Shown here: piece by piece, positions 3,001-35,626 of the stretch | How positions within the stretch are numbered: position 1 is the first letter of the stretch | Layout of the letters: every line of letters starts with the position of its first letter | From: Paraburkholderia hospita | GTDB lineage: Bacteria; Pseudomonadota; Gammaproteobacteria; Burkholderiales; Burkholderiaceae | DNA: 64,000 nt | Direction: 5' to 3' | Assembly (NCBI RefSeq): GCF_002902965.1 | Contig: NZ_CP026108.1 | Location: 124,001-188,000, forward strand | The notes under the pieces: model-generated | Database searches by the model: none | What the model saw: the letters and a program-made list of their open reading frames with translations, nothing else | What the model was told of the DNA's origin: nothing | Made by a program: the position numbers and the translations under genes

Positions 3001-6000
3001 CGCCGCAGGAGGGATGCCGGAAAGCGTCCAGGACCAAACTGATTATCAGCTGTCGTTAGGCGAAGAAGGTGATCGCACGGTGCTACGACGCGGAGCGCGA
3101 GGAGCGGCTGTCGCGGACCTGCAGCGTCGACTGAATTTGCTGCACGTTCGGCTGACAGTAACCGGATCCGCTGGCCTCGCCGAATGTCCGCTCGTCGAGG
3201 ATGGTGTTTTCGGCACACGCACTCAAAACGCAGTCGTATCGTTCCAGCATCTTGCGTTTCCGGAACGGCCAAAGGAATGGGACGGCGTCGTTGGCGCGCG
3301 CACCTGGGGTGAACTCGACCGACTTGGCATACTTCCAACTCCCGTGCCGGTTCCTGTGCCCGTCCCCGTCCCTCCGGCACCGACGCCTCAGCCACCTGCA
3401 GCTGCGAAGGTGGCTGCGGGTCGTGAAGTAATAGCAACGGTTCCGTTACTTCAGAATCATCGAGGCACCGCTCCCGATCTGATTCTCCGCTGGAACGCCA
3501 TGGCCGACTTGCCCACGACCGTTGATGTCGTCGTGCATTTCCACGGATTTTCCGGACACGGGGCGGCCATGCGTCTTGATGCTGACAAGGAGCCACGTAG
3601 CGGACTCGACTTTGCGAACCCTGAGGCTGCAGGCGAAATCGGTCGACAAGAGCCAACCTTATGTATTCTTCCCAGGGGTAACTTCTACGGTGGCAAGACC
3701 GGTAGTGGATACGACTTTCCGGCGCTTGTAGCGCCCGGCGGACTGAGTCGGCTTATAGATTTCGCTCTTGCTCGATTCGCGGCCCGCATCGGAGCGGCGA
3801 ACGTCACGAAGCGTCGCCTGATTCTTACCGCACATTCGGGAGGTGGCGCCGCGCTGTTGCGTGTACTTGCAGACATCAATCCAGACGAAGTAGAGATTTT
3901 TGATGCACTGTACTCGAATGCTGCGCCTATGGTGCGCTGGGTCACCAACCGCCTGCAAAGTCAAGACGCTGGATCTTCGTTGCGGGTTCTTTACATCCCC
4001 GGAACCGGAACGGCAGCGCAAAGCCTGTCGGTCCAAAAAGCGATTCAAGGAATCTTGGGGAGTAACGACCCGCGTGCCGCGCGTTTTCGCGTTGAAGCGA
4101 CGCATGTCGCGCACGGCGACATCCCCCGTCGGTTCGGTTGGCAACTGCTTCGCGACGCGGGTGCCGATCTGCCGCCCGCAGGTCACAAGCCCGATGTGCC
4201 TACCCCGCCGAAGCCCGGGCCGGAGCCTCAGCCCACGGCTCCGGCTTTGACGCAGGCGGACGTGGACCGCTTGTCAGCGATTACCTTCGGCAATGCAGCG
4301 GAAATCAACGCATTCTTTGCAGCTACCGGCGCGTCAAGTGTTGCGGCCTGGTTCAATGCAAATCTCGGTGGCCGTCCGCCGTTCGTCAGGGCTGGCGGAA
4401 GCGCTATGCGAATGCCTGCATCACCTGACGCATTGAACCGGTTTAACGGGTTCTGGGATTGCATCTCGCTGGCATATGACCAGCCGCGAATTACCGCACT
4501 GGAGTTTGCCTCCCTGCTGTGTATCGTTTTGAACGAAACTGACGGTGACTTCACGAGCCGGGTCGAAACTAGCGGTCCGAAACAGCAAGGGTTCACTGAT
4601 GCGCACGGCCGTCATCCAGGTCTGGCCTACTTCTATGACCGCATCCTTCTTCACCCGCCGAGCCAGTGGAAGGCTAGTTATAACCGTTTGAAAGGCAATC
4701 GCACGGCAGGCTCTCTCTTCAACGACGAGGTGTTTATCAGGGCGCACGGCCAACGCGGAGGAGCGTCGACGCTGGCGCGTCGTGGTGATGAGTTCGATGG
4801 TGCATGGAAGGCTGAATATTATCCGCAGGACAAACAGGGCACCGATGAGAAGGCGGCGGATACGGAGTTCATTCGCCAAACCGATTTCTACAAATTCCGG
4901 GGGCGCGGCGTTATTCAGACTACCGGCCGCGTCCATTACACGCCCATCGTAAACATGGTGAGAACGTACGGCGGGACGGATCCTATCCTCGTCGACAAAG
5001 CCAAGGCGTGGTCAGCGTTCTCTACCGATGAAGCAGCGACGTCCAGTTCCGACGATGACTGGAATCAAATCTTTCTTTCGCGCGAAGTACTTGCCCGAGC
5101 TGTCGCGTTTCATGCAGGATCGGGCAGCCTGAATTATCGATTGATGAGTCGCGACATATCAGTTCTGACGGACGTGCCACAGGTCACATCGTCTGGAAGC
5201 AGAGGTGCAGGTCGACAAGGCTCGATCTATTTCATGGGCCATCGCATCAGTGGAAGCAGCGCTTACGCTGCCGGCACTTACCGGGATCGCGTGTTGTCGA
5301 TTCTTCAAGCCTTTGCGAGCGTTGCTGCCGGAGGGAAAACCCAACCGTCTCGCCCACCTTCTGGACCGACACCAGTTCCTTCACAGCCGCAAGCGGTTGC
5401 ACCGCCTAGTCCTGAAGTTGCCCGGCAGCAGTGGAATGCGCACCCGCGCGTTCACGGATGGTTTGGTACGTTTTCGCGTTATGGTGAACTTGCGCCGGTG
5501 TATGCATCGGCCGGCATAGGCGATGCCGCAGCTTACCTCGACGCAAACATCGTTTCTCTCTCCTTCTTCGGACGCCGGCAAGACGGACACAGGGATCTCG
5601 TTGAGCCCTTGCGGCGCGCGGAATTGGCAATGCAGGGACAAACTGTCGATCCGCCTATTACCGATTTTGGATGTCTTGTGCCTCGTGCGATTCGTGGTAC
5701 GACCAACCGTCTGAGTAATCATGCTTTGGGGCGAGCTTTTGATCTGAATCCAGTCCAAAATCCTCGTATCACGCAGGCATCCGATTACGTGGTCATCGGG
5801 GCGGTCGTGGGTGCTGATATCAGGCAGGAAGCTAACCCGACCGTATTGCAACGCGCCAGCCGCGCGTTTCAACAGGGGTTTACAGCAAACTGGGTTGCTG
5901 CACAAACAAAACCGGAGATATTAGCTGCGCTGAATGACCGTAACACGCGGAACCGACTTGAGGGCTATGCCCGTAGCGGATTCTGCAATCTGTATGTGCC

Positions 6001-8373: not shown

Positions 8374-9237
8374 GCAATTGCAGCCCCGCCGGGAAGCTAT
8401 TCAGGTTGGGTAGTCATAGCCAGCCATGTCGGTTCAGTGAGTTTTGCATTGCATACAGAAATCAAGTGTGATACCGGCGCTCTCTTTGAAGTCCGATATT
8501 ACAGGAAAACGTAGTTCTCACATAAGAAGCTCGTTCCATGTATGGACTTCACAGCACCGCCCTGCAACGAGATTCGGGCCTGCTGGTGGGCCGTGCTTAG
8601 AGAAATCGACAGCTAAGAACGATGGCGCCAAGGGTTGCGCTTCGCGAACTTTTCATCGAACTGGATGCATCGGATGAGTTATGTCGTTGGCTCCGGTGAT
8701 ACGGCAGGCGACGAACGTCAATCGTCCGGACGTCGGCTGGACACCTCGAAGCGGCCGTTGATGCCGAGAAGCTCTGAGAGGCAGCAACGGGTCGTGCGCT
8801 GCCATTCGCGCAACGTTCGCGCCGATTGCATATGAATTGGCAACTATCGGCCAGGAAGCGTCATTCGCCTGTCCCCTTGCTCCGACGTCCAGACGTCGGC
8901 TCCGCCCCAGTCAACGGTCGTTCGCCCGGCCAGGTTGAACGTTGCTTCATCGGCCATACCGGCCATTCACGCTCTCTCGGGCGCGGCCTTTTCGCAATGA
9001 CCGCTCCCAAGTGAAGCGACCATGCAGTATCGCCCCTTTGTAGCGGCACAACCCAATCAAAATAAGCACCGAATCCGAAGGTCCGATGGCGATGTAGCGT
9101 CGTATGCCTCATTCATCGTCAATGATGGACTGCTGAGCAACGAGTCAAATTCAGTGTGAATGCCAGGATGCCCGTTGCCGCCGAGACTATATCGACCCAC
9201 ATGCCGGCATTTGACTGACCACGTCTGGCAATTAGAA
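8374..9237. other. Gene-free stretch between IS2-like and IS30 elements
   Basis: Short open frames occur on both strands, but none has a ribosome site, a family motif or plausible composition. The sequence is rich in pieces such as tgaccgctcccaag that resemble the non-coding stretch at 21262-21977. It looks like eroded intergenic DNA between two insertions. Confidence 0.5.
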
Positions 9238-10347
9238 GGGGCGCGATCAAATCTGAAGTGCAACACCTTCCTCGTGTAAGGTGCGCACATGCAAAAAAGA
9301 AGAACGTATCAACAGCTTCAGCCTGAAGAACGCATAACCATTGCAAGCATGAAGCAGCAGGGTTCGAGTGTTCGGGCCATGGCCCGAATACTCGGGCGCC
9401 CGGCATCAACCGTGAGCCGCGAGCTGACCAGAAACACGTGTTCTGCCGTGGGCTATGCGTCTGCGCCGGCGCAGTCGCTCAGCACGAGCCGACGCGAGGC
9501 TGCGCGCCCATGTCCCAAGCTGCACCCTCAAAGCGTGTCGTGGCGCGTCGTACTCACCCTGCTGGAATGGAAGTGGTCGCCCCAGCAGATCTCAGGTACC
9601 CTCAAACGAATGTGGCCCAACGATCCGACCCAGCACGTCTCGCACGAGACCATCTACACTGCCATCTATGCGCAGCCACGCGGTGAGCTGCGCCGCCAGC
9701 TTATCGCCTGTCTGCGCCACGGCCACAGCACGCGTATGTCACGCAAGCGGGGCACTGACCGGCGCGGCCAGATCCCCGACATGGTGAGCATCCATGTGCG
9801 CCCGCCTGAGGTCGACGACCGGGTGATGCCAGGTCACTGGGAAGGCGACTTCATAAAGGGCGCCGGCAACCAGTCTTCCGTCGGCGTGCTGGTTGAGCGC
9901 ACCAGTCGCCTGGTGCTGCTGGCGAAGATGGAAGACGCCACCGCCGCCTCGGCACTGGCGGGCTTCACTGCCAAACTGAATTCGATCGCCGCACCACTGC
10001 GCAAGAGCTTTACCTACGACCAGGGTAAGGAAATGACCCGGCATCAGGAGCTCAGCGCCGCCACCGGCGTGCGCGTGTACTTCTGCGATCCGCACAGTCC
10101 ATGGCAACGCGGTACCTGCGAGAACACCAACGGGCTGCTGCGGCAGTATCTGCCGAAGGGCACTGACCTCTCGATCTACAGTCAGGACGAACTCGATGGC
10201 ATCGCCGACAGCCTCAACAGCCGACCTCGCGCTACCCATGCATTTCATTCACCATTCGAGGTCTTCGAACGTATGCTCGCAACCGCTTCGATAACCTCAG
10301 CTTCCATTCATTAGCCCCCTGTTGCGCTTCACTCTTGAAACCGCCCC
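9238..10347 (+). mobile_element. IS30-family insertion sequence
   Basis: About 1.1 kb with one transposase gene. Imperfect terminal inverted repeats of about 27 bp flank it: the left reads GGGCGCGATCAAATCTGAAG and the complement of the right reads GGGCGGTTTCAAGAGTGAAG, both continuing into a GCAACA-like tail. The right end lies inside the remnant of an IS1182-type transposase gene, so this is a nested insertion. No target duplication is obvious. The ends are known to within a few bases. Confidence 0.75.
9289..10314 (+). CDS. IS30-family transposase
   Basis: This 341-residue DDE transposase opens with an HTH_38-type DNA-binding region (YQQLQPEERITIASMKQQG, then ARILGRPASTVSRELTRN). The core shows IS30 signatures: GHWEGDFIKG (Asp), TYDQGKEM (Asp) and ENTNGLLRQYLPKG (Glu). 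The frame is intact and nearly fills the element, so it is probably functional. The start is ATG 9289 in gcgcacatg, shortly after the left inverted repeat. Confidence 0.9.
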   Translation: MQKRRTYQQLQPEERITIASMKQQGSSVRAMARILGRPASTVSRELTRNTCSAVGYASAPAQSLSTSRREAARPCPKLHPQSVSWRVVLTLLEWKWSPQQISGTLKRMWPNDPTQHVSHETIYTAIYAQPRGELRRQLIACLRHGHSTRMSRKRGTDRRGQIPDMVSIHVRPPEVDDRVMPGHWEGDFIKGAGNQSSVGVLVERTSRLVLLAKMEDATAASALAGFTAKLNSIAAPLRKSFTYDQGKEMTRHQELSAATGVRVYFCDPHSPWQRGTCENTNGLLRQYLPKGTDLSIYSQDELDGIADSLNSRPRATHAFHSPFEVFERMLATASITSASIH

Positions 10348-10348
10348 G

Positions 10349-10645
10349 CTAAAAGGGGACTGCACGCCGGGCCCTCACCGACGGGTGGCGCGCTGGGAGC
10401 ACGAAGCTGTTCTTGATGAAATGCAGGCGCGGCTTGATCAAGCGCCTGAGATGATGCGTATCCGGCGACAGACTGTCGAGCACCCGTTCGGCACGATCAA
10501 GGCATGGATGGGCGCCACTCATTTCCTGACACGGACCATCGGGCGGGTGAGCACGGAGATGAGCTTGCACGTGCTGGCGTACAACATGAAGCGGGTGATC
10601 AAGCTACTCGGTTCAGAAGCGGTTATGAAGGCGATGAGGGCGTGA
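10349..10645 (+). pseudogene. C-terminal stump of an IS1182-type transposase
   Basis: Only the last 98 residues remain. They contain the recognisable IS1182-family tail: RWEHEAVLDEMQARL, RRQTVEHPFGTIKAWMG and EMSLHVLAYNMKRVIKLLG. The N-terminal part is absent and the frame runs into the right end of the IS30 element, so the IS30 insertion or a linked deletion removed it. It is not expected to be expressed as an active enzyme. Confidence 0.8.
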
Positions 10646-10976
10646 GGCCCGTTCAGGGTTGTTGAGTCTTTGCGATGTGTTCGGCTGTGATTTGACGTTC
10701 GGGTTGCCGCAATCGAAAAGCCGCGACCTGCGCCGAGCCAGGTTTCGTCAATTCACAGTGGCTACGCGTTTTGACACGCTCTGGGCCAAGAAGAGACGGT
10801 TGACTGTGCTGCCCAGATCGTCAACAATTGCTCGCCGCCCCCTCGCCGACGGACCCGCAATGCTTGTTCGCCTGCTCACCGCATCCGACGCGCTATTGTT
10901 CGAATTCTAGGGCTATCAAAGACCGGCGCGATCCGATGCTCGGCTTCGACTAACAGCAAAAACCTCGAGCATCGGC
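10646..10976. other. Tail of the IS1182-type element and intergenic DNA
   Basis: Downstream of the transposase stump, a TTTTGACACGCTCTGGGCC-like segment near 10770-10788 could be the old right end of the IS1182-type element (inference, not verified). A 9-bp inverted repeat, CGATGCTCG / CGAGCATCG, at 10934-10942 and 10966-10974 lies directly after the stop of the NIPSNAP gene. It could act as a weak terminator, but the loop is long and there is no strong U-tract. Confidence 0.4.
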
Positions 10977-11324
10977 TTACTCTGCGACACTAGCCAGCGC
11001 GGCGGCACGAATGAGCTGTGTCTCCTGTGCCATGATCAGATGGCCCGATGCCGTGAGATAGGCCGGGAAATCCGGATGCGTATCGCGTGCAAGGCACCGT
11101 CGTTCGTAGTCTGCCAGATCATCATACCCCCACAGGTGGGTGAACTGGTTCTGCGGCCCGACCAGACTCGTCCAGAAGCCGAGCGGATGTCCAAGCGTCT
11201 CGCGCAGGATCGGCATGCCGAGCCTGTCGAACACTTCGAGAAACTCGGGCATCTTGCGCAGCGCGATGGTGTAGACCCGGAAATCCACAAGGGGCTTTGC
11301 CAGAAACATTGGTTGGGTATTCAT
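10977..11324 (-). CDS. NIPSNAP family protein
   Basis: This 115-residue protein has the NIPSNAP ferredoxin-like fold pattern: VDFRVYTIALRKMPEFLEVF at the start, GFWTSLVGPQNQFTHLWGYDD in the middle, and a Tyr/Arg-rich helix after it. NIPSNAP proteins are small alpha/beta-barrel proteins often encoded beside catabolic oxidoreductases; their biochemical role is poorly defined. The ATG overlaps the stop of the flavoprotein gene by four bases (ATGA), so it was the last gene of that operon. With the flavoprotein split by an insertion, its transcription probably now depends on IS-internal or new promoters. Confidence 0.8.
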   Translation of the reverse strand: MNTQPMFLAKPLVDFRVYTIALRKMPEFLEVFDRLGMPILRETLGHPLGFWTSLVGPQNQFTHLWGYDDLADYERRCLARDTHPDFPAYLTASGHLIMAQETQLIRAAALASVAE

Positions 11325-12013
11325 GCGTCCACCTTCTCCTTGCGGGCCATGGCTTTGGTGGCGATGACGTTACCGGTGACATAGCCGAAAGTCATGTTGG
11401 GCCCATGAGTGATGCCGGCGCCCGGATAGTTGCCGCCCATCACGCTGCGCCGGTCATTGCCGACCGCGTAAAGGCCCACGATCTGGCTACCGTCGGCGCG
11501 AAGCACCTCGCCGGTGACGCTGGTCCTGAGGCCGTCGAACGTGCCCAGATCGCCCATCACTACCTTCACCGCATAGAAGGGGCCGGTCGCGATCGGCGCA
11601 ACGCAAGGATTGGGCTGGTTGTCCGGATCGGCGAGATAACGGTTGAACGACGTGCGTCCGCGCTGGAACGCCGGGTCTTCTCCGCGCACGGCGTCGAGAT
11701 TGTAGGCAGAGACCGTCGTCTCGAGCGCATCAGGAACAATCCCGCAATTACGCGCCAGTTCGCCGAGCGTCTCGCCCTTGACGAGGTAGCCTTTGCGTAG
11801 CAACGGGCCCACCGGCATCGGCGTGGGCTTGGCATAGCCGAGTCCATACTTGCCGAGCGCCACCTTATCGCAGATCAGCCACATCGCGGTCTCCCGTTCA
11901 CCCTTGTTGACGGCGCTGTAAAACCGCGCTTTTTGGGCGGCGCAAGTCAGAGTGATTTGCTCGAGCACGAGGGGGCCTCGCAGGCCCCTTCGTTTTGATG
12001 CACTGTATTTACG

Positions 12014-12232
12014 TCAGAACGGCGGGTCGCGTTCGTGAGTACGCGCGTGCACCTCTGAGGAGCGCTGCTCACGCAGCAGTTCGTTAAGCTGAGCGCCATA
12101 GAAGTCGGTCACGACGGCGAGCAGATCCTCGAGCAGTTCGAACACGGCGAGTGCCTGCTCAGCCGTCCAGTCGTCGGGAATGGTGAACGGCAATCCGCGA
12201 CAGCGGCCCGATGGCAACAAGGGGCGGCTCAT
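12014..12232 (-). CDS. Small IS21-associated protein downstream of istB
   Basis: This 72-residue protein begins with MSRPLLPSGRCRGLPF, continues with an acidic helical stretch (AVFELLEDLLAVVTDFYGAQ) and ends with a charged tail. Its ATG is fused to the istB stop in a TGATG overlap, which implies translational coupling. It has no motif that I recognise. Its position inside the inverted repeats shows that it moves with the element; a role in target choice or regulation is only a guess. Confidence 0.65.
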   Translation of the reverse strand: MSRPLLPSGRCRGLPFTIPDDWTAEQALAVFELLEDLLAVVTDFYGAQLNELLREQRSSEVHARTHERDPPF

Positions 12233-13017
12233 CACGCGGTCTCCGTCTTCGTGGGGGGCTTGCGGGTTTTGCGCTGCCTGGCCCGGGCTTCGTTGCGCTC
12301 GCGCGCTTCCTTGAGTCGATACGATTCGCCCTCGATTGAGATCACTTCGGCGCGATGCACGAGGCGGTCGACCAGCGACACCACGCAGGCCGCGTTCGGG
12401 AACACGTCCGACCATTCTTTAAACGGCTTGTTGGTCGTTATGATGGTCGAATGTGCCTCATACCGGCGGCTGACGAGTTCGAACAGCAAGTCGGCATGGC
12501 GGTTCGAGTACGAGAGGTAGCCGACCTCATCGATCACCAGGATGTCCGGCGTCGCGTAGTGGTGCAGACGCCGACGTAGCGCCGAATCGCTGTCGAGCGC
12601 GGCGAGCTCGCCGAGCATCTCGCTAGCTGACTTGAACAGCACCGTGTGGCCCTGGATGAGTGCGTGGTGCGCCATATTCTGCGCAAGCGTCGACTTCCCC
12701 ACGCCGTTCGGGCCGACGAACACGACGTTGGTTGCGTCGGCGAGGAATGTTAGCGACATCAGGTCTTCCACCGCCGCGCGGTCGATTCTCGCGGGCCAGC
12801 TCCAGTCGAAGTCGGCCATCGCCTTGAACTTGCCCAGCTTCGCCGCCCGGATGCGTCGCTGCAACGAGCGGTGCGCGCGCTCGTCTTCTTCCCACTGCAG
12901 CAGCGGCGCGAGCCATGTGGCGCCGTCGATTTCGCTCCAGTGTTCGACGAGACCGTTCAGGCGCAGCGCCTTCGCGCGCAGACGCAGGACTTCATTGTTA
13001 ATCGTGGTCGACGTCAT
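12232..13017 (-). CDS. istB: IS21-family helper ATPase IstB
   Basis: This AAA+ helper of IS21 transposition, 261 residues, is DnaC-like. The Walker A motif is GPNGVGKST and Walker B is ILVIDEVGYL, followed by the TTNKPFKEW sensor-type stretch common in IstB. The family forms a nucleotide-dependent filament on target DNA and recruits IstA. The start ATG 13017 (MTSTTINNEV) overlaps the end of istA by 20 bp, so the two are coupled. The C terminus is basic (RQRKTRKPPTKTE), consistent with DNA contact. Confidence 0.92.
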   Translation of the reverse strand: MTSTTINNEVLRLRAKALRLNGLVEHWSEIDGATWLAPLLQWEEDERAHRSLQRRIRAAKLGKFKAMADFDWSWPARIDRAAVEDLMSLTFLADATNVVFVGPNGVGKSTLAQNMAHHALIQGHTVLFKSASEMLGELAALDSDSALRRRLHHYATPDILVIDEVGYLSYSNRHADLLFELVSRRYEAHSTIITTNKPFKEWSDVFPNAACVVSLVDRLVHRAEVISIEGESYRLKEARERNEARARQRKTRKPPTKTETA

Positions 13018-14506
13018 CGCCTTCCTCCCTTGCGAGTTGATCGTAGGTATCGAGCCGGTGCGGCTGCACAGGCGCATCCTTTCGTCGCACATGCTCCGGC
13101 AGATTGATGACGACGGGCGGTGGTGCCCCTCGCACCGCGCGACGACGTTCGAGCGCCGCCCGCACGGTGTTCGTATGGGCCGATCCCGCGCGCAGCGCGT
13201 CCTCGACGGCCGCCTGCAGTTCGACAGCGCCGTAGCGATCGAGCAGGCGCAGCAGCGAGGTCGTGAGCCCGCCGATATTCGCGCCGCGCTCAGCCGCGCG
13301 CATCAGCAAGAGCTGGCAGGAAGGCACGGCGCGAGTCAGGCTGTTAATGCCACGGTGTTGACGCGCTTCACGCTTGAACTCGACGAGCGTCTTCAGGTGT
13401 TGTGGGTCTTCAATCTGTTCAGCTCGGTCGTAGCTGCGCCGATGGCTGGCGATCATCTCGGCGCCGTCGAACACGCGAACCTGATTGAGGTCAGCACGAA
13501 CGCTCAGCGTGCGACGCACGTGCGTGTGGGGTACCGTGTAGTCATTCAGATCGAAGCGCACGTAGGGAGTCTTGCCGACCTTCACGGCCACTTGCTCTTC
13601 GACCGGAAACGGATTGGCAGGTAGCGGGAGTAACAACGACTGCTCCTGAGCGAACGCCTCACGTACGGTCATCGCGCGGTCCTCAGGGCACGGGCGATCG
13701 GCTGCCTGCGTGCGGCACCATTGCTCGGCCTGCGCGTTCAGGTCGTCGAGGTCAGTGAATTTGCGCGCGGCGAAGAAGGCTTCGCGAACATGCCGTATTG
13801 CGCGTTCCACGCGTCCCTTCTCGTTGCCGCGCGCGACGGCAACGGGGCGTGGTTCAAAGCGGTAATGGCCGGCGAACGCGAGCAGCGTTGGATGGAAGCG
13901 GATCGCGTCGCCGACCCGTTCAAGCACCGCCGACTTCAGGTTGTCGTAGAGCAGAACTCTCGGCAGTCCACACCACGTGTTGAACGCACCGATGTGCCCG
14001 CGTAAGAAGTTCTCCATCCGCGCATCGAGGAAGAAGCGCAGGTAGATGTCGCGCGAGTACGAGAGCACCATCACGAAGGCCATCAATGGCCGACGCGCGC
14101 GACCGATCTCGACATATCCGAAGTGGCCCCAGTCAACTTGAGCCTGCTCGCCTGGCAAGGTGCGCAGCCGCAGGAAGGCCTCGGCGGGCTTGCGTGGGCG
14201 ATGCAACGCGAGCATGTGCCGGAAGTGATCCCGCGCCCCCTTGTAGCCGCGCTCACGCACCATCACGTAGAGACGGCTTCCCGTGAGCGTCGGATACTTC
14301 TCCAGCGTCTGCCGGATGAACGGCAGGTACGGCTCAATCATCGAGGGCTTCGGCGTCGGGCCGTATCGAGGTAGTCCGGCGCTGGCGAGCACACGCCGCA
14401 CCGTCTCACGGTGCACGTGCAACTGCTTCGCGATGGTGCCGCAGGGCCACTTCTCGACGTGGTAGAGACGCAAGATCTGCGTCTCAAGCTCAACCGGAAT
14501 CGTCAT
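12998..14506 (-). CDS. istA: IS21-family transposase IstA
   Basis: The transposase of the element, 502 residues. The N-terminal helix-turn-helix (KWPCGTIAKQLHVHRETVRRVL) is followed by an rve catalytic core with Asp in QVDWGHFGYVE, Asp in LLYDNLKSAV and Glu in NEKGRVERAIRH, then a C-terminal Mu-type beta-barrel region. The start ATG 14506 (MTIPVELETQ) overlaps the upstream Cys-rich ORF by 17 bp. All key residues are present, so the enzyme is probably active. Confidence 0.92.
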   Translation of the reverse strand: MTIPVELETQILRLYHVEKWPCGTIAKQLHVHRETVRRVLASAGLPRYGPTPKPSMIEPYLPFIRQTLEKYPTLTGSRLYVMVRERGYKGARDHFRHMLALHRPRKPAEAFLRLRTLPGEQAQVDWGHFGYVEIGRARRPLMAFVMVLSYSRDIYLRFFLDARMENFLRGHIGAFNTWCGLPRVLLYDNLKSAVLERVGDAIRFHPTLLAFAGHYRFEPRPVAVARGNEKGRVERAIRHVREAFFAARKFTDLDDLNAQAEQWCRTQAADRPCPEDRAMTVREAFAQEQSLLLPLPANPFPVEEQVAVKVGKTPYVRFDLNDYTVPHTHVRRTLSVRADLNQVRVFDGAEMIASHRRSYDRAEQIEDPQHLKTLVEFKREARQHRGINSLTRAVPSCQLLLMRAAERGANIGGLTTSLLRLLDRYGAVELQAAVEDALRAGSAHTNTVRAALERRRAVRGAPPPVVINLPEHVRRKDAPVQPHRLDTYDQLAREEGDDVDHD

Positions 14507-14966
14507 CGGGGCCTCCGCGATCAGAACGACGGTCGAAGGCAACGCCTTCGGGGCGAACATGATGGAGACCACGACGACGCACAAAGCCGGTTCGTACCAG
14601 CGGTGAGAGCAAGGTGCCGCAGAAACGACAGTTCAACTGAGGCGGCGCCGCCGGGCGAACGGCGGCGTTGGCGAGTGCAACGGCGTCGTCGCGGTCCGGT
14701 TGCAGTACACCATCGGCGGGGGAGTCAGGTGAACCGTGATGCGTCACGAATTGCCGCCGGACCCGATAGCGCCGGGCGCGTGCGGCATGTGCAAAGCGTC
14801 CGCGGCGGGAACGCTGATAGCGTTGCCCGGCTTCGCGCACGCTGTCGCGGCGAGCATGGGCGGCGCAGTCGCCGCAGTATCGATTGCCACGGTCACACTG
14901 GCGGCAGACGAAGACCTGCGCCCGACAACGGGCGCACAGGTACAAGCGACCTGAAGGCGGCTGCAT
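14490..14966 (-). CDS. Cys-rich zinc-ribbon-like protein, first gene of the IS21 element
   Basis: This 158-residue protein has two close CxxC pairs in CARCRAQVFVCRQCDRGNRYC, a later C-x2-C in CRFCGT, and a basic middle region (EAGQRYQRSRRGRFAHAARA, then RRYRVRR). It probably binds zinc and nucleic acid. It starts behind an AGGGGAACC ribosome site and overlaps istA by 17 bp, so it is co-translated with the transposase. I recall similar ORFs next to transposases in Burkholderia-type genomes, but no assigned function. It may be a regulator or accessory factor of transposition. Confidence 0.7.
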   Translation of the reverse strand: MQPPSGRLYLCARCRAQVFVCRQCDRGNRYCGDCAAHARRDSVREAGQRYQRSRRGRFAHAARARRYRVRRQFVTHHGSPDSPADGVLQPDRDDAVALANAAVRPAAPPQLNCRFCGTLLSPLVRTGFVRRRGLHHVRPEGVAFDRRSDRGGPDDDSG

Positions 14967-16540
14967 TGGCGGTTCCCCTGGAACGCCAAAGAGACGGGTC
15001 CAGTGAAGTCGACGGGCCGCGCGAGCAATGCGATACTGGCAGCTCACACGGCTCTCCGGCCGGCCAAAAGGCCTGCCACATGGAAACCCTGTGGAGGCGC
15101 GGTGCCGGACTGGACCTGGCAGTTGAGGCCGGCGTCGCGCCTGTTGTTCTTCCTTGGCAAACGCCTTTCTACCATGTCGCTGCCGCGACGCGATGCGGGT
15201 CGCATCTCCAGTCGCCCTACGGGCTCTCTACGCCGCGACCCGCGTCGTCGTCATATCACTCACAGCGCATTTACTGCTTCCGCTAGCTGAATTGTTCGCC
15301 CCTTGCCGCGACGCCGATATACGATGCCGCCCGAAAAGCGCGGAAACTGACCGCCATCGACAACCCTCACAGGCTCGCATCAGCGCCGCGCCAACATCGT
15401 GGTAGGAGTTCGATTCGTTGGTGAAGCGCCGACCGTTCCGCAGCACGCCGATCACGCCGGGCTTGTAGCGGTCGAGCAGATGCGGGAATACGCCTGTGCG
15501 GCCCTTGCCGAAGGGCACCTTCGATACCGGCATCCAGGCCGACGCATCGGCGAAGCCGAGCGCCACGGCACCACCCATCTTCTCCGCCATGCTCAGCCCG
15601 TCGCCCGTATTGCCGACGGGAGTAGGCGAGACATGCTCACCCCCACGCTTCACATGCGGATAGACCTGCGCGATGCGCTTGAGATCGTGCGGGAAGCCGC
15701 CGCAAGCCAGCACGACGCCGTGCCGCGCGGTAATCCGAAGATCGCCGTCCGCAGCGCTCGCGCGCACGCCGGCCACCTTGCCGTCCTCGCTCAGCAGTTC
15801 CTTCACGGGCGTCGAAGTGAGGATCGGAATCTTGAGCGCCAGCGCCGACTTCGCGAGCCTCGCGGCTAGCGCGTTGCCGCTCCTTACGTTGATCCCCCGC
15901 CGGTAAAGCGCCAGCTCCTTGAGGTGCGTAGCCAGACGCCGGGCTACGTAGAAAAACGAAACAATCGACTTGGTCGCGCGGAAGAAGTGCTTGAGGTCCG
16001 CGTTCGAGGAATTGAACATCATTCCCATAAAGGTGATCGTCTCGAGCGGCGGCTTGAGACGGCGCATGTCCTTGCCCAGCCCGCGGATGTCGAAGGGTGC
16101 GGCGAGGATCGAGCGGCCGACGTCGACGCCGCCGGGCGCATCCGGGTGATAGTCCGGGATAGAGCGTGGGCACGAACTTCATCTCGGTCTCTTGCTCAAA
16201 GAACTCAACCATTCTCGGCCCGTTCTCGATAAAGCATTCGACCGCGGCGGCATCGTAGTTGTTGCCCGTCTCGCTCATCATGTACTCGCGCACGCGCTCG
16301 ACGCTGTCAGCTGGGTTCTGCTGGCGGCCATATTTGCTCAGCGGAATCCACAAGACCCCGCCCGACAGCGCGGTGGTACCACCGAACACGGGCTCCTTTT
16401 CGAGCACGATTACATCGAGGCCGCGCTTTTTTGCGGTGATCGCGGTAGCGAGGCCCGCGGCACCCGATCCGACCACGACCAGATCGCAAGTGATCTTCTT
16501 GGCCATATCCACTCTCCTCGTCGTTATGGTGTGATGGTGC

Positions 16541-17389
16541 TCACGCGGCCGCCGGGGTGGCGTTGAAGCCGGGGCGCGGGACCATGTCCATCAGCATGCA
16601 ATCGAGCCCGCCGTCGACGAGCACCTCCGCGCCATTGACGTAGGCAGCTAGCTCGGAGGCGAGGAACAGGGCGGGGCCGGCGAGGTCCTCCGGCTCGCCG
16701 ATGCGGCGGCTCGCGGTGGCGGCGGCGCGGCGAGCCTCGAAGCCGGGCTCCTCGTAGAACTTCGCGGACAGCGCGGTGCGGATCATGCCGGGCAGCACGC
16801 AGTTGCTGCGCACCCCGCGAGGGCCCCATTCCGCCGCCAACTGACGCGACAGCAGCAGCACGCCCGCCTTGCTTGGGCTATACGAACCGCTATTGGTCTG
16901 CGGATTGAGTGCCGCAATCGAGGCAACGTGAACGATGCTGCCTTTCCCTGCGGCCAGCATGTCGGCTCCGAAAGCTCGAGCACACAGCAGATAGCCGGTC
17001 AGGTTCACGGCGATGGCCTGGTTCCAGTCCGCGATCGACACCGTGTCGAGAGGTCCGGCCCGCAGCAGCCCCGCATTGTTGACGAGCACGCTAGCCGGGC
17101 CGAGCGCTGCACGAACCGCGCCGGCTGCCTCGGCAACCGAGGCCTCGTCCGACACGTCGCAGCCGATCGCCTGCGCCACTGCACCGGCGTGCCGGAGTTC
17201 GGCGGCGACAGCTTCAGCGCCGCCAAGATTCCGGTCCACCAGCGCCACATGTGCTCCGACACTGGCGAACGCGCGCGCGATGCCGGCACCAATACCACTG
17301 CCTGCACCCGTGACCACGCAGACCTTTCCGTCCAGGTTCAGCGCGTAGGGGGTCGACGCAGCGGCGCGATTTTCAAGTTCCTGTCTCAT
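16541..17389 (-). CDS. SDR family NAD(P)-dependent oxidoreductase
   Basis: This classical short-chain dehydrogenase has 282 residues. It shows the nucleotide-binding TGAGSGIG motif, NNAG after strand 4, a catalytic Tyr-x3-Lys in GSYSPSKAG with an upstream Ser, and the PG motif of the cofactor loop (VLPGMIRTA). An N-terminal extension of about 20 residues precedes the Rossmann fold. The ATG at 17389 follows an AGGA ribosome site. It lies 28 bp upstream of the flavoprotein gene on the same strand, so the two formed an operon with the NIPSNAP gene. It probably oxidises a secondary alcohol made by the neighbouring P450; the substrate is not known. Confidence 0.9.
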   Translation of the reverse strand: MRQELENRAAASTPYALNLDGKVCVVTGAGSGIGAGIARAFASVGAHVALVDRNLGGAEAVAAELRHAGAVAQAIGCDVSDEASVAEAAGAVRAALGPASVLVNNAGLLRAGPLDTVSIADWNQAIAVNLTGYLLCARAFGADMLAAGKGSIVHVASIAALNPQTNSGSYSPSKAGVLLLSRQLAAEWGPRGVRSNCVLPGMIRTALSAKFYEEPGFEARRAAATASRRIGEPEDLAGPALFLASELAAYVNGAEVLVDGGLDCMLMDMVPRPGFNATPAAA

Positions 17390-17512
17390 GTAGTTGTCCT
17401 TCCTGAAATTTCCATGCGATTTTGCTTGCTGAAATCCGTATCGCCATTGAACGCCCCAAGCGCCTGTGGAACAATGGACAGAGATCACATAGAGCAGGAC
17501 ATAACGTGCAGC

Positions 17513-18445
17513 ATGGCCAATGACCAACAGCGCCGCCGGACCGTTCTGCATTTCGCGCTCTATGGCGCGGAAGCCGACCAATCCTGGGTCGACATGGTCC
17601 ATTACGAACGCATTCCCCTGCGTGCCGGCCGTTTCGACTTCGACATCAGGCCGCACATCCATGACGCACTGATCCAGGTGCTCTACGTCACCGCCGGGGG
17701 CGGCGAGACCTTCATCGACGGCAAGAGCTGGGCAGTCGAAGCGCCATGCCTGATCGTCGTGCCAGCGCGCTCGGTTCACGGCTTTCACTTCCGCAGCGAC
17801 ATCGACGGTCACGTCATCACCGCCGCGCAGTCCACGCTGGAATCGCTGGCGATGACGGCCGCGCCCGAGCTGCTGGAATTCATCCGCACGCCGACGGTGC
17901 TGTCGATCGATCCCGACGTCGAGCGCGGCACACCTCTAAACACCCTGTTCGAGGCGATCGGCCACGAGGCCGAGAGCCGCGAGCGCTGGCAGTTCACCGC
18001 AGGCGCGGCACTGGCGATCACCTTGTTCGTCAAGATCGGGCGCCTCAGCGAGAGCGCCCGGCTTTCGGCCAGTTCCGAACAGCGCACCATGGCCGGACGG
18101 ATCGAGCGGTTCCGCGCGTTGCTCGACCGCCATTGCCGTGAGCGGCGCCCGGTCGCCAGCTATGCCGACGAGATGGGCGTGAGCACCGGCCAGCTCTCGC
18201 GCATCTGCCGCGCCACCTTCGGGGTGTCGGCAATCGAGGCAATCGATGCGCGCTCGATCCATGAGGCCAAGCGGCTGCTCGGCTATTCGACGCTCAGCGT
18301 GAAGCAGATCGCCAGTGAACTGGGCTTTCAGGACGAGGCCTATTTCGGTCGTTTCTTCCGCAAGCAGACGGGACTGCGGCCAACCGAATACCGCTCCGCG
18401 GCCCACGATCGATCCTTGCCGCCCGAAAAGGGGAGCGCGGGTTGA
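17513..18445 (+). CDS. AraC-family transcriptional regulator with cupin domain
   Basis: This 310-residue regulator has an N-terminal cupin sensor (HIHDALIQVLYVTAGGGETFIDG to VVPARSVHGFHF) and two C-terminal AraC helix-turn-helix units (YADEMGVSTGQLSRICRATFG and VKQIASELGFQDEAYFGRFF). The layout resembles PobR-type activators of aromatic catabolism. It is divergent from the SDR gene across 123 bp (17390-17512) and converges on the P450 fusion with a 26-bp gap. It is therefore the likely local regulator of the catabolic cluster, sensing the substrate or a product. Confidence 0.9.
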   Translation: MANDQQRRRTVLHFALYGAEADQSWVDMVHYERIPLRAGRFDFDIRPHIHDALIQVLYVTAGGGETFIDGKSWAVEAPCLIVVPARSVHGFHFRSDIDGHVITAAQSTLESLAMTAAPELLEFIRTPTVLSIDPDVERGTPLNTLFEAIGHEAESRERWQFTAGAALAITLFVKIGRLSESARLSASSEQRTMAGRIERFRALLDRHCRERRPVASYADEMGVSTGQLSRICRATFGVSAIEAIDARSIHEAKRLLGYSTLSVKQIASELGFQDEAYFGRFFRKQTGLRPTEYRSAAHDRSLPPEKGSAG

Positions 18446-18471: not shown

Positions 18472-21261
18472 TTAGGCCGATAACCCACGGAACTTGACGA
18501 ACAGGTGTTCCGGCCCGGAGTTGGTCAGGTTGTTGCCCCGCACATACTCGATCGGCCGTGCCGGATCGAGTGCGATATCGCCAACCTTGCGGGCCAGAGC
18601 CTTCGTCGCGATCAGCGTCTCCAGCTTGGCGAGGGGCGCACCAAGGCATTTGTGCATGCCGTTACCAAAGCCCAAATGACCGTTGGAATCGCGGTCGATG
18701 TCGAACCTCTCGCCGTCGGTAAACTTGCGGCTGTCGCGGTTCGCAGCCGACAGCAGCAAGCGCACCACCGCGCCCTTGGGCAGATGGACGCCCGCGACCG
18801 TGGTCGCCTCGGTGGTGATGCGGCTCACGCGCTGGACGGTCCCACGATAGCGCGCCACCTCCTCGACGAAACGGTCAGCGTCGGCCGGGTTTTCGCGAAT
18901 CCGTCCCAGCAGATCCCGCTGTTCGGCGAACATGCGAAAAGCGTTGGCGACGAGGATAGTCGTCGTGTCGTGCCCGGCGATGAAGACGAAGGCGCACAAC
19001 TCCTTCGCTTCCTTTTCCGAAAGCAATCCGTCCTTCCACATGCGCGCGATATGCCCGCCGATCGACTGGCTGTCGGTGCGAGCGAGCCGCTCCATCGCTT
19101 CCTTCAGGTAAGCGAAGAAAGCCTGCGCGCTCTGCTCGTCGGTGCCGGTCCCCGGCGCATTGCGGGCGAGGCGCCCGAAGTAGCTGAAGGTCTCGTCCGA
19201 CCAGAACTTCATCTTCTCTTCATCCTCGTTCGGCACGTCGATCATCGTGGAGATCGTCGAGATGCTGAGCGGGATAGCGAAATCGTCGACGACATCGCCG
19301 CCGCCTTTGGCAATCATCGCGTCGAGCAGGTCCTCCGCCCTCTGCCCGATCTGCTCGATAAAGGGATCGAGCGCCAGCGGCAGGAAGGACGGCTGGACGA
19401 CCTTGCGCAAGCGCGAATGGTCGGGCGCATCGAACAGCGTCAGGAACGTCAGCGGTGGCGGGCTGACGACCTCGGAGGAAAACAGCTTGGGATTGCGAAT
19501 CGCCTGGTAGACATCGTCATAGCGCGACAGGAACCACACGTCCGACGTCGCCGACTGGCAACGCAGCACCGGCGCATGCTCGCGCATCCAGCGGTAGTGC
19601 TCGTAAGGGTCGCCTTGCGAGCCGTCATCGACCACCTTGAACGGCTCCAGCTCCTCGGGCCAGTCCAGTTCGTGTGAATAGGGCGGAAGGGTCTTGGCCG
19701 TGAATGGGCAAATCTGCGGCGCGCTCCGCGGCACGGGAGACGGGGGAGCGGGTGGCGCTGCAACCACGGGTGCCGTCTTGCCCAGCGTCATTCGCTCCAG
19801 CGCGCGGCTCATCGTGGCCTTGGAATGCAGTGCATGCAGTGCAATCACGTCCCGTGCCGCGTTCAGGTCGCCCAGTTCGAAGGCGGCGACAATGTCCCGG
19901 TGCTGTTGGACGATATCGCCGACGATCTCGATCTGGTCGGTCAGCGCGCGGGCGATGTAGTCCTGCACGGCCAGTTGCCGGTAAAGCGCGATCAGTTGGG
20001 CGTTACCGGAAGCTTCAATGGTGAACAGGTGGAAGGCATGGTTTGCCTCGATGTAGCGCGCAACGTCGGTAAAGCGCCGTCCGGACACAAACGGCGCCGT
20101 CGCCTCGGCGAGCCGGCGGAACATGATCAATTGCTCGCTCGACAGCCGGCCCATGGTCAGCTGAGCCGCCCCGAGTTCGAGGGCCATGCGCAAATCGAAG
20201 GCTTCATCCACATCGACAGGAGCCATGCGCTCCTCGCCTGTCTGAACGACCAGGCCGGTGCCGGCGAACTTCTCGTAATAGAAGTTGCGCGGCGTCAGCC
20301 CTTCGGACGAGAGAAAATTGCGCACCGCATCGACCATCGGCGGCGGGCCGCAAAGGTACACATCCGCATCCCCATTGTTGAGCTGGGAGGCGCTGATGTG
20401 GTGGGTCACATAGCCTTTGTTGGGGTGGGCACTGTCGGGGCTGGAGACGGTGCAGGCATAGGTGAAGTTCGGCAGGCGCTGCGCATAGGTTTCGAGCCGG
20501 TCGATGCCAACCAGATCTTCGTCGCTGTTCACACCAAAGATCATGTGGATCGGATACGGACTGCCGCCGTCCGCGACGATCTTGTCCAGCATCGACAGGA
20601 ACGGAGCGAGGCCCGTGCCACCCGCCAGAAACAGCACCGGCCGCTCGATGGGGCGCAGGTAGAAGCTTCCCAGCGGGCCACGAAACTCGATTTGGTCTCC
20701 TACTTTGGCGGATTCGCACAGCCAGCTCGACATCACCCCTTGACGCACATTGCGCACAAGGAAGGACAAACGCGGCGCGGACGGCCCCGAGCTGAAGGAG
20801 TAGGAGCGGGTCTGATCGGTTCCGGGCACCCGGATGTTGACATACTGCCCCGCAAGGAAGCTGAGATCCGCGCGGTTCTCCAACTCGACCGAGAAGGCGA
20901 TCGTGGTGTCCGAGGCTCGTTGGCAGGCGACGATCCGTCCTTGGTGGGAGGACGGGCCGGTCCCCGAGACATCGGAATTCGTGGCGAGCTTGATCACGCA
21001 GTCGGAACGTGGGCTCATCTGGCAGGTGAGAACCTTGCGGGCGCTCGCCTCTTCCGGGCTGAGCGCATCTTCCACGCAGTCGCCCAGAACGTATTCGCCG
21101 GACTCGCAGACCGCCTTGCAGGTGCCACACACACCATCACGGCAATCGAGTGGAATATTGATCTTGGCGCGAATGGCGGCATCGGTGACACGCTCGCCCT
21201 CCTTGCACTCGATGAAGCGGGTCACTCCGTCCTCAAAACGGAGGGTTATCTGATGGGCCAT
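18472..21261 (-). CDS. Self-sufficient monooxygenase fusion: 2Fe-2S ferredoxin, FAD/NAD reductase, FCD domain, cytochrome P450
   Basis: One intact 929-residue frame. Residues 1-95 are a plant-type 2Fe-2S ferredoxin (Cys40, 45, 48, 80). Residues 105-335 are a BenC-like FAD/NAD reductase (RSYSFSS at 152, AGGTGLAP at 213, CGPPPMV at 304). Residues 351-490 match the FCD ligand-binding domain of FadR-type GntR regulators, with Asn407, His411, His454 and His476 spaced like FCD metal ligands, but there is no winged helix. After a Pro/Ala linker, residues 518-929 are a P450: I-helix AGHDTT at 762, ExxR at 801-804, heme Cys872 in FGNGMHKCLG. Electrons would pass NAD(P)H to FAD to 2Fe-2S to heme inside one chain. 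Ribosome site AGGAGAC precedes ATG 21261. Confidence 0.92.
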   Translation of the reverse strand: MAHQITLRFEDGVTRFIECKEGERVTDAAIRAKINIPLDCRDGVCGTCKAVCESGEYVLGDCVEDALSPEEASARKVLTCQMSPRSDCVIKLATNSDVSGTGPSSHQGRIVACQRASDTTIAFSVELENRADLSFLAGQYVNIRVPGTDQTRSYSFSSGPSAPRLSFLVRNVRQGVMSSWLCESAKVGDQIEFRGPLGSFYLRPIERPVLFLAGGTGLAPFLSMLDKIVADGGSPYPIHMIFGVNSDEDLVGIDRLETYAQRLPNFTYACTVSSPDSAHPNKGYVTHHISASQLNNGDADVYLCGPPPMVDAVRNFLSSEGLTPRNFYYEKFAGTGLVVQTGEERMAPVDVDEAFDLRMALELGAAQLTMGRLSSEQLIMFRRLAEATAPFVSGRRFTDVARYIEANHAFHLFTIEASGNAQLIALYRQLAVQDYIARALTDQIEIVGDIVQQHRDIVAAFELGDLNAARDVIALHALHSKATMSRALERMTLGKTAPVVAAPPAPPSPVPRSAPQICPFTAKTLPPYSHELDWPEELEPFKVVDDGSQGDPYEHYRWMREHAPVLRCQSATSDVWFLSRYDDVYQAIRNPKLFSSEVVSPPPLTFLTLFDAPDHSRLRKVVQPSFLPLALDPFIEQIGQRAEDLLDAMIAKGGGDVVDDFAIPLSISTISTMIDVPNEDEEKMKFWSDETFSYFGRLARNAPGTGTDEQSAQAFFAYLKEAMERLARTDSQSIGGHIARMWKDGLLSEKEAKELCAFVFIAGHDTTTILVANAFRMFAEQRDLLGRIRENPADADRFVEEVARYRGTVQRVSRITTEATTVAGVHLPKGAVVRLLLSAANRDSRKFTDGERFDIDRDSNGHLGFGNGMHKCLGAPLAKLETLIATKALARKVGDIALDPARPIEYVRGNNLTNSGPEHLFVKFRGLSA

Positions 21262-22805: not shown

Positions 22806-23622
22806 GGTACTGTCGCGATAAGGTTTTCAGCGCGAACACGGTCGATACGATAAGGAATGCTTATGCAACCAACGAATAGAAGCGGTCGGCCCGAGTCTGA
22901 CCAATCGCACAGTCTTCTATTTGTTCCTTGGCGATCATGTGCATCGTTTCAATGCCGGCGAGCAGAATCCGCGCGCAGCGGAAAGATTTGAAACCCAGCA
23001 TCGGCCGCGTGCGGCGCTTGATTGCCCGGTGATCCTGCTCAATGATGTTGTTCAGATACTTGTTCTGGCGAATTTTGATAGGTGTTTCACGACCGGCGTT
23101 GATGGCTTCGAGGGCGGCCAGATTGGCCCCGCTTTTGTCGATCGTGACAGTCTCGGGTTCTCCGTTGCGCGCGATCGATTTCTCGAAATAGCGCTGCGCG
23201 GCAGCCTTGTCACGATGGGCTCGCAGCAGGAAATCGATTGTCTTGCCCGCCTTGTCCACGGCGCGGTACAAATACCTCCATTGCCCTTTGACCTTGATGT
23301 ACGTTTCGTCCATGCGCCAGCTCTTGCCCACCGGCCGTTTGCGACGGCGGAACGCCTTCTCCAGCACCGGTAGCAGTTTGATGGCCCAGCGGTGTACGGT
23401 CGAGTGATCGACCAAGACACCGCGCTCAGCCATCATTTCTTCAAGGTGTCGGAGACTCAACGGGTAGGCCACGTACCACCGGACGCACGTCAGGATCACA
23501 TCGAGGGGATAATGCAGGCGTTTGAGCACTCGGGCCACCGCCGGATTCAACGTCGTCATCGAGCTTCAAGTCGTTCATTTCGTTCCGCACATCATAGCCG
23601 ACTGCGTTAGTGCGACAGAACC
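22806..23622 (-). mobile_element. IS6-family insertion sequence (IS26-like organisation)
   Basis: The 817-bp element has a single transposase. The left end reads GGTACTGTCGCGATAAGG and the complement of the right end reads GGTTCTGTCGCACTAACG, a typical IS6-family inverted repeat. The 8-bp flanks (gattttcg and gatgcggt) differ, which fits insertion followed by replicative cointegrate rearrangement, common in this family. The adjacent DNA on either side may therefore have been brought together by IS activity. Confidence 0.85.
22861..23559 (-). CDS. IS6-family transposase
   Basis: This 232-residue DDE transposase has an N-terminal HTH (LRHLEEMMAERGVLVDHSTVHRW), then the catalytic residues: Asp in WRMDETYIKVKG, Asp in VTIDKSGAN and Glu in NNIIEQDHRAIKRR. 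The YLYRAVDKAGKTIDFLL and TRPMLGFKSF stretches are family hallmarks. It is full length for IS6 and has no internal stops. Confidence 0.93.
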   Translation of the reverse strand: MTTLNPAVARVLKRLHYPLDVILTCVRWYVAYPLSLRHLEEMMAERGVLVDHSTVHRWAIKLLPVLEKAFRRRKRPVGKSWRMDETYIKVKGQWRYLYRAVDKAGKTIDFLLRAHRDKAAAQRYFEKSIARNGEPETVTIDKSGANLAALEAINAGRETPIKIRQNKYLNNIIEQDHRAIKRRTRPMLGFKSFRCARILLAGIETMHMIAKEQIEDCAIGQTRADRFYSLVA

Positions 23623-33394: not shown

Positions 33395-35626
33395 CTATGT
33401 TCGTGCCCCTCTCAAACGAAGAGCATTGCCTATCACCGACACCGAGCTCAAGGCCATCGCCGCGCTTGCGAGAATCGGGCTTAGCAGGATACCGAGCCAC
33501 GGATACAGTACGCCCGCTGCGACAGGGATTCCAATCACGTTGTACGCGAAGGCAAAGAAGAGGTTCTGCCGGATGTTTTTCATCGTGGCGACGCTCAGGG
33601 CCCGGGCTCGTGCGATACCTCGCAGGTCGCCCTTGACCAGCACTACACGTGCGCTGTTCATGGCGACATCGGTTCCGGTACCCATCGCAATTCCCACATT
33701 GGCCTGAGCAAGAGCGGGAGCATCGTTGACACCGTCGCCAGCCATCGCAACAACATGCCCTTGCTGCTGCAACTCTTGGACGTGCTTGTATTTGTCCTGC
33801 GGCAAAACGCCGGCCTTGACGCCATCAAGCGACAGCGTCTTTGCTACCGCGTTGGCGGTGACTGGGTTGTCGCCGGTCAGCATAATGATTTTGATGCCAG
33901 ACGCCCTCAGAAGTTGAACCGCCTCTGCTGTTGTTCCCTTGACCGGGTCGGCCACGCCGATATAGCCCGCGAGCCTTCCATCAATTGCGAGGTACATAAT
34001 CGTCTGGCCGGCTTCGCGTAGCCGGTTCACGTCGATGCTCACGGCAGCGCAATCGACTTTCGCGTCGTCCATGAGCCCCGTGTTGCCAAGTAGTGCGACG
34101 TGGCCATCAATCCGGCCGCTCACACCTTTGCCGACGATTGAGTCGAATTCACCAACTGGCTTCGTCTCCGCCTTCTTCTCCTGTGCCTGCGAGACGATGG
34201 CCTGCGCCAATGGATGTTCGCTCGGCCCTTCGAGACTGGCCCCATAGCTCAGCACGGACGACTCTGATTGGTCCGCTAGTGCCACGACGGTTTGGACACG
34301 AGGTTTGCCCTCAGTAAGCGTGCCGGTCTTGTCGACTACCAGCGTGTCGACTTTCTCCATCAGTTCAAGTGCTTCCGCATCCTTGATAAGAACACCCTCT
34401 TTCGCGCCGCGCCCGACCCCTACGATGATGGAGACTGGAGTCGCCAGTCCGAGCGCACAGGGACACGCGATGATAAGGACGCTGATTGCGACGACCAGCG
34501 CATTCGCGAGCGCCGGGGCCGGTCCTACGACGGCCCAGACGACGAACGAAACCGCAGCAATCGCAATCACCGCGAGCACAAACCAGCCCGACACCTGGTC
34601 GGCCAGTTTCTGAATGGGCGCGCGGGAGCGACCGGCCTCAGCAACCATCTGGACAATTCTTGCCAATAAGGTGTCAGAGCCCACCTTTTCCGCACGCATC
34701 AGGAACGTACCGGTCTGATTGACCGTGGCGCCTGTCACCTTGCTGCCAGTTACCTTTTCCGACGGGATGGATTCACCGGTAATCATGGATTCGTCGACGC
34801 TTGAGCGTCCGTCAATGACGACTCCATCGACCGGCACCTTCGAGCCCGGTTTGACCCGAAGCGTGTCGCCAGTCACGACGTCTTCGAGCGGTACCGATTC
34901 CTCCATTCCGTCGGCCGTTACACGGACTGCCGTATGCGGCGCAAGGTTGAGCAAATCTTTGATAGCGCTCGACGTGCGGGAGCGTGCGCGCAGCTCCAGT
35001 ACCTGTCCCAAAAGAATCAGCGTGACGATGACTGACGCTGCTTCAAAGTAAAGTGGCAGCTCATGTCCATGCCTAAACGCCTGTGGCAATGCGTCCGGGA
35101 AGAACAGCGCGAACAGACTGAAGAAGTAAGCGGCGGAAACGCCCAGCCCAATAAGGCTGAACATGTTCAGTTGCCACATCCGGAATGACTTCCATGCACG
35201 CTCGAGGAACGGCCAGCCCGCCCACAGAACGACTGGGGTTGCGAGCGCCGCCTGAACGCATTGTGCCCACGATGCGCGCATCCAGTGTGGCAGCGTCAAC
35301 CAGTTACCGAGCCGGTTGATGGCAGCGCTGCTGTCATATGACAGAAACATCGGCCCCATCGTCATTACCAGCAGCGGCAACGACAGCGCCAGTGCGACCC
35401 AGAACCGACGGGTCATAGACTCCAGTTCAACATTCCGTTCCTCGACCGCGAGCGGGGTGACGGGCTCCAGCGCCATGCCGCAGATGGGGCAGTTGCCCGG
35501 CGCTGATGCGCGTATCTGCGGGTGCATTGGGCAGGTGTAGACGACACCCGGCTTGTTTTCGCCGCGATTCACGAACCCGTCGCCGATAGGGACTGGTCCC
35601 GGGGCATGCAAGTGCGACTCGGACAT
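33395..35626 (-). CDS. Copper-translocating P1B-type ATPase
   Basis: This 743-residue heavy-metal ATPase has an N-terminal YHS-like heavy-metal-binding domain ([20 protein letters not shown], residues 30-49) in place of HMA domains. It also has TGES (283), the CPC ion motif in ACPCALG (388-390), phosphorylated Asp432 in DKTGT, the SEHPLA motif (469), and GDGVNDAP (630). It exports Cu(I) or Ag(I) across the inner membrane. It is the last gene of a four-gene minus-strand operon (37019 to 33395) with a 20-bp gap to the preceding gene. The whole operon is suited to envelope copper stress. Confidence 0.93.

Follow-up and report, generated by a model that had tools for sequence, protein, structure and literature searches.

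The window analyzed here, a stretch of 64,000 nucleotides from Paraburkholderia hospita (contig NZ_CP026108.1, positions 124,001 to 188,000), contains a frame of 929 codons that raises a question: Why does an FCD domain stand between the reductase and the P450 of a single polypeptide, and what might it do there? Our main reading, to which we assign a probability of about 0.78, is that the frame probably encodes an ortholog of the P450 described from Paraburkholderia terrae KU-64, with an FCD module that would have been inherited from its reductase branch; the orthology rests on genus, architecture, and neighboring genes. As a class of self-sufficient, FCD-bearing P450s is already known (published in 2022), the fusion itself is no discovery, and the interest lies in the FCD. 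What we add on this domain is its occurrence in BenC-FCD proteins, the conservation of its histidines, its constraint, and the natural loss of its site.

The frame is a single one on the minus strand, while the plus strand of the same segment holds stops, and a by-eye reading finds a GGAG ahead of the ATG. Pfam matched Fer2 (residues 10-84, 54.1 bits), FAD_binding_6 (110-201, 63.5 bits), NAD_binding_1 (211-314, 78.1 bits), FCD (PF07729; 353-476, 58.1 bits with the cut-off at 24.3, E = 1.6e-15), and p450 (745-885, 75.3 bits), and the P450 part extends over residues ~536-925 as judged by phmmer against PDB chains. This is the order that the original prediction had read from the letters (2Fe-2S, FAD/NAD reductase, FCD, and P450, with the P450 last), and the FCD match lies within residues 345-495, where the HMM check had been proposed. 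Its description of the reductase as BenC-like also holds, as residues 3-333 pass the NCBIfam BenC equivalog (501.8 bits against a cut-off of 430) and find their nearest PDB chain in the benzoate dioxygenase reductase 1krh; so does the FCD without a DNA-binding part, as no GntR HTH (the N-terminal winged helix) was found among the Pfam families of the frame. Motifs were located in both halves: RSYS at 152, AGGTG at 213, and CGPP at 304 in the reductase, and the I-helix acid-alcohol pair GHDT at 763, the ExxR motif EVAR at 801, and, by motif scan, the heme-binding Cys loop FGNGMHKC at 865 in the P450. The cluster cysteines 40, 45, 48, and 80 were conserved in 67 of 67 aligned full fusions, taken from the best 120 of 1124 matches (P0001-P0065, P0067, and P0068; the partial family proteins P0066, P0069, P0070, and P0087-P0094 were excluded). 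A structure search ranked 1krh (BenC), 5ogx (GcoB), and 4wqm at the top, with P450BioI as the first P450 and CYP199A2/A4 with 4-methoxybenzoate within the best 50; no FCD structure was among these best 50 fold matches, and a PDB profile search (profile A2) returned the BenC tail only. Among the 10 window frames scanned with Pfam, no ring-hydroxylating dioxygenase adjoined the fusion. Many database records among the matches listed label the fusion "benzoate 1,2-dioxygenase electron transfer component BenC," a name that hides the P450.

Table 1. Coordinates of the fusion, its parts, and the genes beside it (positions in the window).
Feature	Position	Strand	Remarks
929-aa self-sufficient P450 (chcA-like), 2Fe-2S ferredoxin-FAD-NAD-FCD-P450	18472..21261	-	Pfam, NCBIfam, and PDB matches
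BenC-like reductase part, residues 3-333	20263..21255	-	NCBIfam BenC
FCD domain, residues 353-476	19834..20205	-	Pfam; putative metal/ligand residues N407, H411, H454, H476
Variable linker, residues 490-527	19681..19794	-	median dN/dS 0.52; model confidence mostly low
P450 domain, residues 540-929	18475..19644	-	GHDT 763, EVAR 801, FGNGMHKC 865
AraC-family regulator	17513..18445	+	convergent with fusion, divergent from SDR gene
SDR dehydrogenase	16562..17434	-	matched stretch, gene ends inexact
FAD-dependent dehydrogenase (chcC-like), broken	about 11324..16512	-	frame change near 16144-16172, IS21-type element
NIPSNAP-like gene, next in conserved group	10989..11336	-	name from annotation of NZ_CP134198

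The order, which the original prediction had called unusual, is not new, as it appeared in print in 2022 for a cyclohexanecarboxylate hydroxylase (as excerpted from a review of that year, PMC9687028). The enzyme in question is the P450 of P. terrae KU-64 (Yamamoto, Hasegawa, and Iwaki, 2022, doi 10.1093/bbb/zbab199), which the excerpted review describes as an N-terminal 2Fe-2S ferredoxin, an FAD part, an FCD-like part, and a C-terminal P450, and as responsible for the initial hydroxylation in cyclohexanecarboxylate degradation (PMC9687028); excerpts of three other papers cite the same work (PMC9302171, PMC11237480, and PMC10104344). An excerpt of a further paper outlines the pathway as hydroxylation at C4 by the P450, dehydrogenation to the 4-oxo compound, and two desaturations that yield 4-hydroxybenzoate (PMC9795900). 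Compared by such partial descriptions, the window fusion and the KU-64 P450 are alike in their domains and in their order, and the window copy differs in that it adjoins a broken FAD dehydrogenase gene. The window fusion is thereby predicted to be a single-chain, NADH-driven P450 that would hydroxylate cyclohexanecarboxylate to 4-hydroxycyclohexanecarboxylate, with electrons passing, as the families suggest, from NADH through FAD and 2Fe-2S to the heme. The neighboring SDR and FAD dehydrogenase would oxidize this product towards 4-hydroxybenzoate for PobA, as the operon and the published pathway together suggest. The abstract of the KU-64 study by Yamamoto et al. of 2022 reportedly gives kinetic values and names NADH as the preferred electron donor.

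The SDR, FAD dehydrogenase, and NIPSNAP-like genes share the direction of the fusion, and the annotated order in NZ_CP134198 is fusion, HTH, SDR, FAD oxidoreductase, and NIPSNAP. Upon counting neighbors in 46 loci (L029-L074; one reference protein per gene, E 1e-20), we observed that AraC was matched in 45, the SDR in 34 (some partial), the FAD dehydrogenase and NIPSNAP in 30 each, and PobA in 9, where 5 of these had at least 87% identity; within the locus DNA examined, a match to the FAD dehydrogenase was absent in 16 of the 46 and one to the SDR in 12. AraC is the constant companion of the fusion. While PobA of L060 and L071 scored above the curated cut-off, the SDR of L053 (177 bits against 350 for NCBIfam ChcB2) and its FAD dehydrogenase (550 bits against 900 for ChcC2) stayed below theirs. 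In the window, the IS21-type element sits between two parts of the FAD dehydrogenase, 16506-15357 and 11905-11324, and a search for a target-site duplication around it gave only chance-like matches of 5 bases. At a second copy of the fusion in this genome, the stretch fetched (L108, L109) shows AraC alone of these neighbors. With the FAD dehydrogenase broken at one copy and only AraC at the other, the strain may not use the pathway via these copies; elsewhere in the genome, we found a 68% paralog of the FAD dehydrogenase near a PobA-like gene (50%). The rest of the window includes an IS240-type transposase (22861-23559), a P-type ATPase that bears a heavy-metal-binding HMBD domain (33395-35626), and a second frame of Mu-transposase type with a sigma-70 region 4-like HTH (41213-42793), and an Rfam scan of the window gave nothing above threshold.

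The relatives of the reductase point to a source for the FCD. Actinobacterial benzoate 1,2-dioxygenase reductases of a type that we call BenC-FCD (for example, in L077) carry the reductase and the FCD in the same order and with the same histidines as the fusion, to which they are ~47-53% identical over these two parts among the matches listed. A BenC-FCD protein ends past the FCD and has a separate dioxygenase, BenAB, as its partner, whereas the fusion carries a P450 instead. All four of the actinobacterial ben loci fetched (L075-L078) show the order benA, benB, BenC-FCD, benD, and BenA, BenB, and BenD of L077 scored above curated cut-offs; five plain BenC genes (L079, L080, L094, L098, and L106) stop just past the reductase, before any FCD. 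We built a reductase tree by a quick method, unrooted, from 70 rows: 14 of 68 full fusions including the window, 4 of 16 short forms (see below), 20 BenC-FCD proteins, 31 plain BenC proteins, and P0098. A branch with support 93 set the plain BenC proteins apart from the rest, the BenC-FCD proteins formed one group (95), and the fusions together with the short forms formed another (85), a pattern that is consistent with a single origin of the FCD in the reductase branch. The domain would then have arrived with the reductase, as the C-terminal domain of a BenC branch that serves benzoate dioxygenase in actinobacteria.

When the FCD region was searched by itself, 79 proteins came back, namely members of the fusion family, fragments of them, and two BenC-FCD-SDR proteins, and a search with a piece of the FCD returned 38 of 101 candidates, mainly fragments of BenC-FCD or of the fusion family, with one match that bears a GntR HTH (P0151); both searches require shared words and similar length, such that more distant GntR relatives would escape them. 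In four deposited sequences (P0115, P0117, P0121, and P0122), BenC-FCD is apparently followed by an SDR in one frame, and in a fifth (P0095) a ring-hydroxylating beta subunit apparently precedes BenC-FCD in one frame. We considered P0098 as a separate BenC-SDR architecture lacking an FCD and rejected it, as only positions 2-29 of the FCD model built for the family match its middle and the match is lost beyond position 29, as after a change of frame. A search of the literature, with subscription journals mostly outside its reach, found no paper that deals with the short form or with a BenC that carries an FCD.

In FCD domains, residues of the form Asp/Asn-x3-His, His, His can bind metal. Aligned to the GntR protein 6az6 (E = 0.0018), the window FCD has N407, H411, H454, and H476 as this putative site. 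In the rows of a home-made HMM, which replaced a noisy regular-expression count (Asp/Asn, own GntR proteins, 15 of 30 loci), N407 was found in 66 of the 67 full fusions and each of the three histidines in all 67 (from the best 120 of 1124 matches), and of 28 BenC-FCD rows, 27 were matched, all 27 with the three histidines and 26 with N407. The 33 FCD rows of the own genome, which come from 30 loci, have Asp at position 407 in 20, Asn in 7, and other residues in 6, so the Asn of the window fusion stands against an Asp in 20 of 33; their equivalents of positions 411, 454, and 476 are His in 29, 30, and 28 rows, respectively. The median dN/dS was nearly equal in the FCD (0.084) and the P450 (0.085), higher in the redox domains (0.13-0.21), and highest in the linker 490-527 (0.52), as obtained from 27 pairs (26 chosen close-relative loci and the second copy) that were all taken against the window copy and are hence non-independent. 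The FCD is as constrained as the P450, and the conserved histidine site and the strong purifying selection suggest that it may bind a ligand or metal.

In the predicted structure, the FCD forms seven helices with a block-mean pLDDT of 79-97 over residues 351-490, whereas the values drop below 50 in residues 331-346 and 494-531 and in some stretches of the ferredoxin and P450 domains, at a pTM of 0.43. Owing to this pTM and to the low-confidence stretches that flank the FCD, the domain arrangement in the model carries low confidence, and the model does not support the rigid hinge that the original prediction had offered. We read the FCD as a folded module under selection that came with the reductase; it is putatively a metal- and carboxylate-binding one, which would hold or tune the arrangement of reductase and P450.

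A lineage in which most of the site has disappeared bears on this role. The P. youngii type of short fusion (857-871 residues; 16 clusters, P0071-P0086, within the best 120 of 1124 matches; for example, L071 8001-10574) retains the reductase and a P450 part that is 76% identical to that of the window fusion, with the FCD reduced to a remnant. The general FCD model matched 0 of the 16, and the linkers of four of them scored 22.0, 22.1, 21.8, and 15.6 bits against the family FCD model, where the best of 500 shuffles per linker reached 7.2, 8.6, 7.2, and 4.6 bits. In the alignment, the stretches bearing N407, H411, and H454 are missing in 16 of 16, the His aligned to 476 persists in 14 of 16, and the equivalents of ~354-390 and 414-440 persist as well. 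As the short forms nest inside the fusion group of the reductase tree (a set of 8 rows, support 97), the short form represents a loss of the FCD site. The sole short-form locus fetched, L071, has kept AraC, SDR, FAD dehydrogenase, NIPSNAP, and PobA. The site is accordingly not strictly needed, given that a natural lineage lost most of it and kept the enzyme.

Of the roles that the FCD might play, a purely structural one, as a spacer or a dimerization scaffold that fixes the distance between reductase and P450, survives best, and we hold it to be a serious candidate at somewhat less than even odds. In GntR proteins, the FCD contributes to dimerization, and the stretches that persist in the short lineage after the loss of the site are what such a scaffold would retain; a spacer alone, however, fails to explain three histidines that never vary across the 94 matched enzyme rows. 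The near invariance of the site residues across FCD-bearing enzymes, the purifying selection on the domain, and its attachment to two different acid-oxidizing oxygenases would fit a ligand-gated switch, in which cyclohexanecarboxylate or an acid of the pathway would occupy the histidine/metal site and open transfer from the 2Fe-2S cluster to the heme or, in BenC-FCD, to the dioxygenase. That small acids are common ligands of FCD regulators counts on the same side. Such gating nonetheless appears doubtful, as the nested lineage without N407, H411, and H454 keeps the enzyme and, in L071, the operon, and as the plain BenC of ben operons stops before the FCD position. Structural tuning is the likelier role of the FCD, and a switching of electron flow upon substrate binding is possible. 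Bolder still, and in our estimation improbable, is a scenario wherein a BenC-type reductase took up the ligand domain of a transcription factor in a single event, and this domain now senses acids in a metal-dependent manner and gates the electron supply of two unrelated oxygenases, the actinobacterial Rieske dioxygenase and the fused P450 of proteobacteria, with one Paraburkholderia lineage, its site lost and its enzyme ungated, as a natural control. In any case, the FCD-less relatives (plain BenC), those with an intact site, and those with an eroded one provide a natural set on substrate-acid switching of P450 and dioxygenase reductases.

That the frame could be an artefact of assembly or annotation that joins two genes, as the shorter annotation of some deposited relatives (P0089-P0094) might suggest, is very nearly inconceivable, given that 42 of 46 relatives (loci L029-L074) keep one unbroken frame, that the second copy in the same genome lies on another contig and is 92% identical to the window fusion, and that the same architecture is already published. 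The join, which had been named as grounds for withdrawing the prediction, is not what we found. The 42 include the short form of L071, and the exceptions are L070, whose start coincides with a contig end, two loci with broken frames (L072 and L073), and L074 (Kluyvera georgiana), where residues 1-535, from Fer2 to the FCD, lie in a 616-aa frame at 4058-5905 and no P450 match was found in the locus. We also considered a split FCD-P450 form in Kluyvera and Pseudocitrobacter (P0089-P0094) and set it aside: Of the Kluyvera, Pseudocitrobacter, and Enterobacter loci fetched, L061-L065, L067, and L069 have the frame complete, L072 is broken, and L074 stops after the FCD. Across Paraburkholderia, the fusion family is widespread, with 24 of 117 genomes of the genus, the own genome included, giving a match at E 1e-200; of these matches, one is partial (G063), one consists of two pieces within one frame (G062), and one is the P450 part alone, of a short form (G069). 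Five plasmid records, all from Paraburkholderia, hold 99-100% of the fusion.

The probable KU-64 ortholog, with its inherited FCD, can be set beside other known P450 systems. In GcoAB of Amycolatopsis (GcoB, 5ogx), a 2Fe-2S/FAD/NADH reductase of the same fold serves a P450, as in the fusion. Unlike the fusion, GcoAB presumably consists of two separate proteins that lack an FCD. P450RhF and its CYP116B-type relatives resemble the fusion in combining P450, flavin, and 2Fe-2S domains in a single chain; their P450 domain comes first, and neither they nor P450 TT are known to carry an FCD. A stand-alone P450 on a plasmid of Rhodococcus sp. USK10 (L152) is 47.7% identical to fusion residues 527-921, and there, unlike in the fusion, the P450 is followed by a separate reductase of pyridine-nucleotide type and a 107-aa 2Fe-2S ferredoxin (8812-11823). 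P450 TT, according to the excerpted review, joins the same three kinds of domains (P450, flavin, and 2Fe-2S) in a single chain as the fusion does, with the P450 domain first (PMC9687028).
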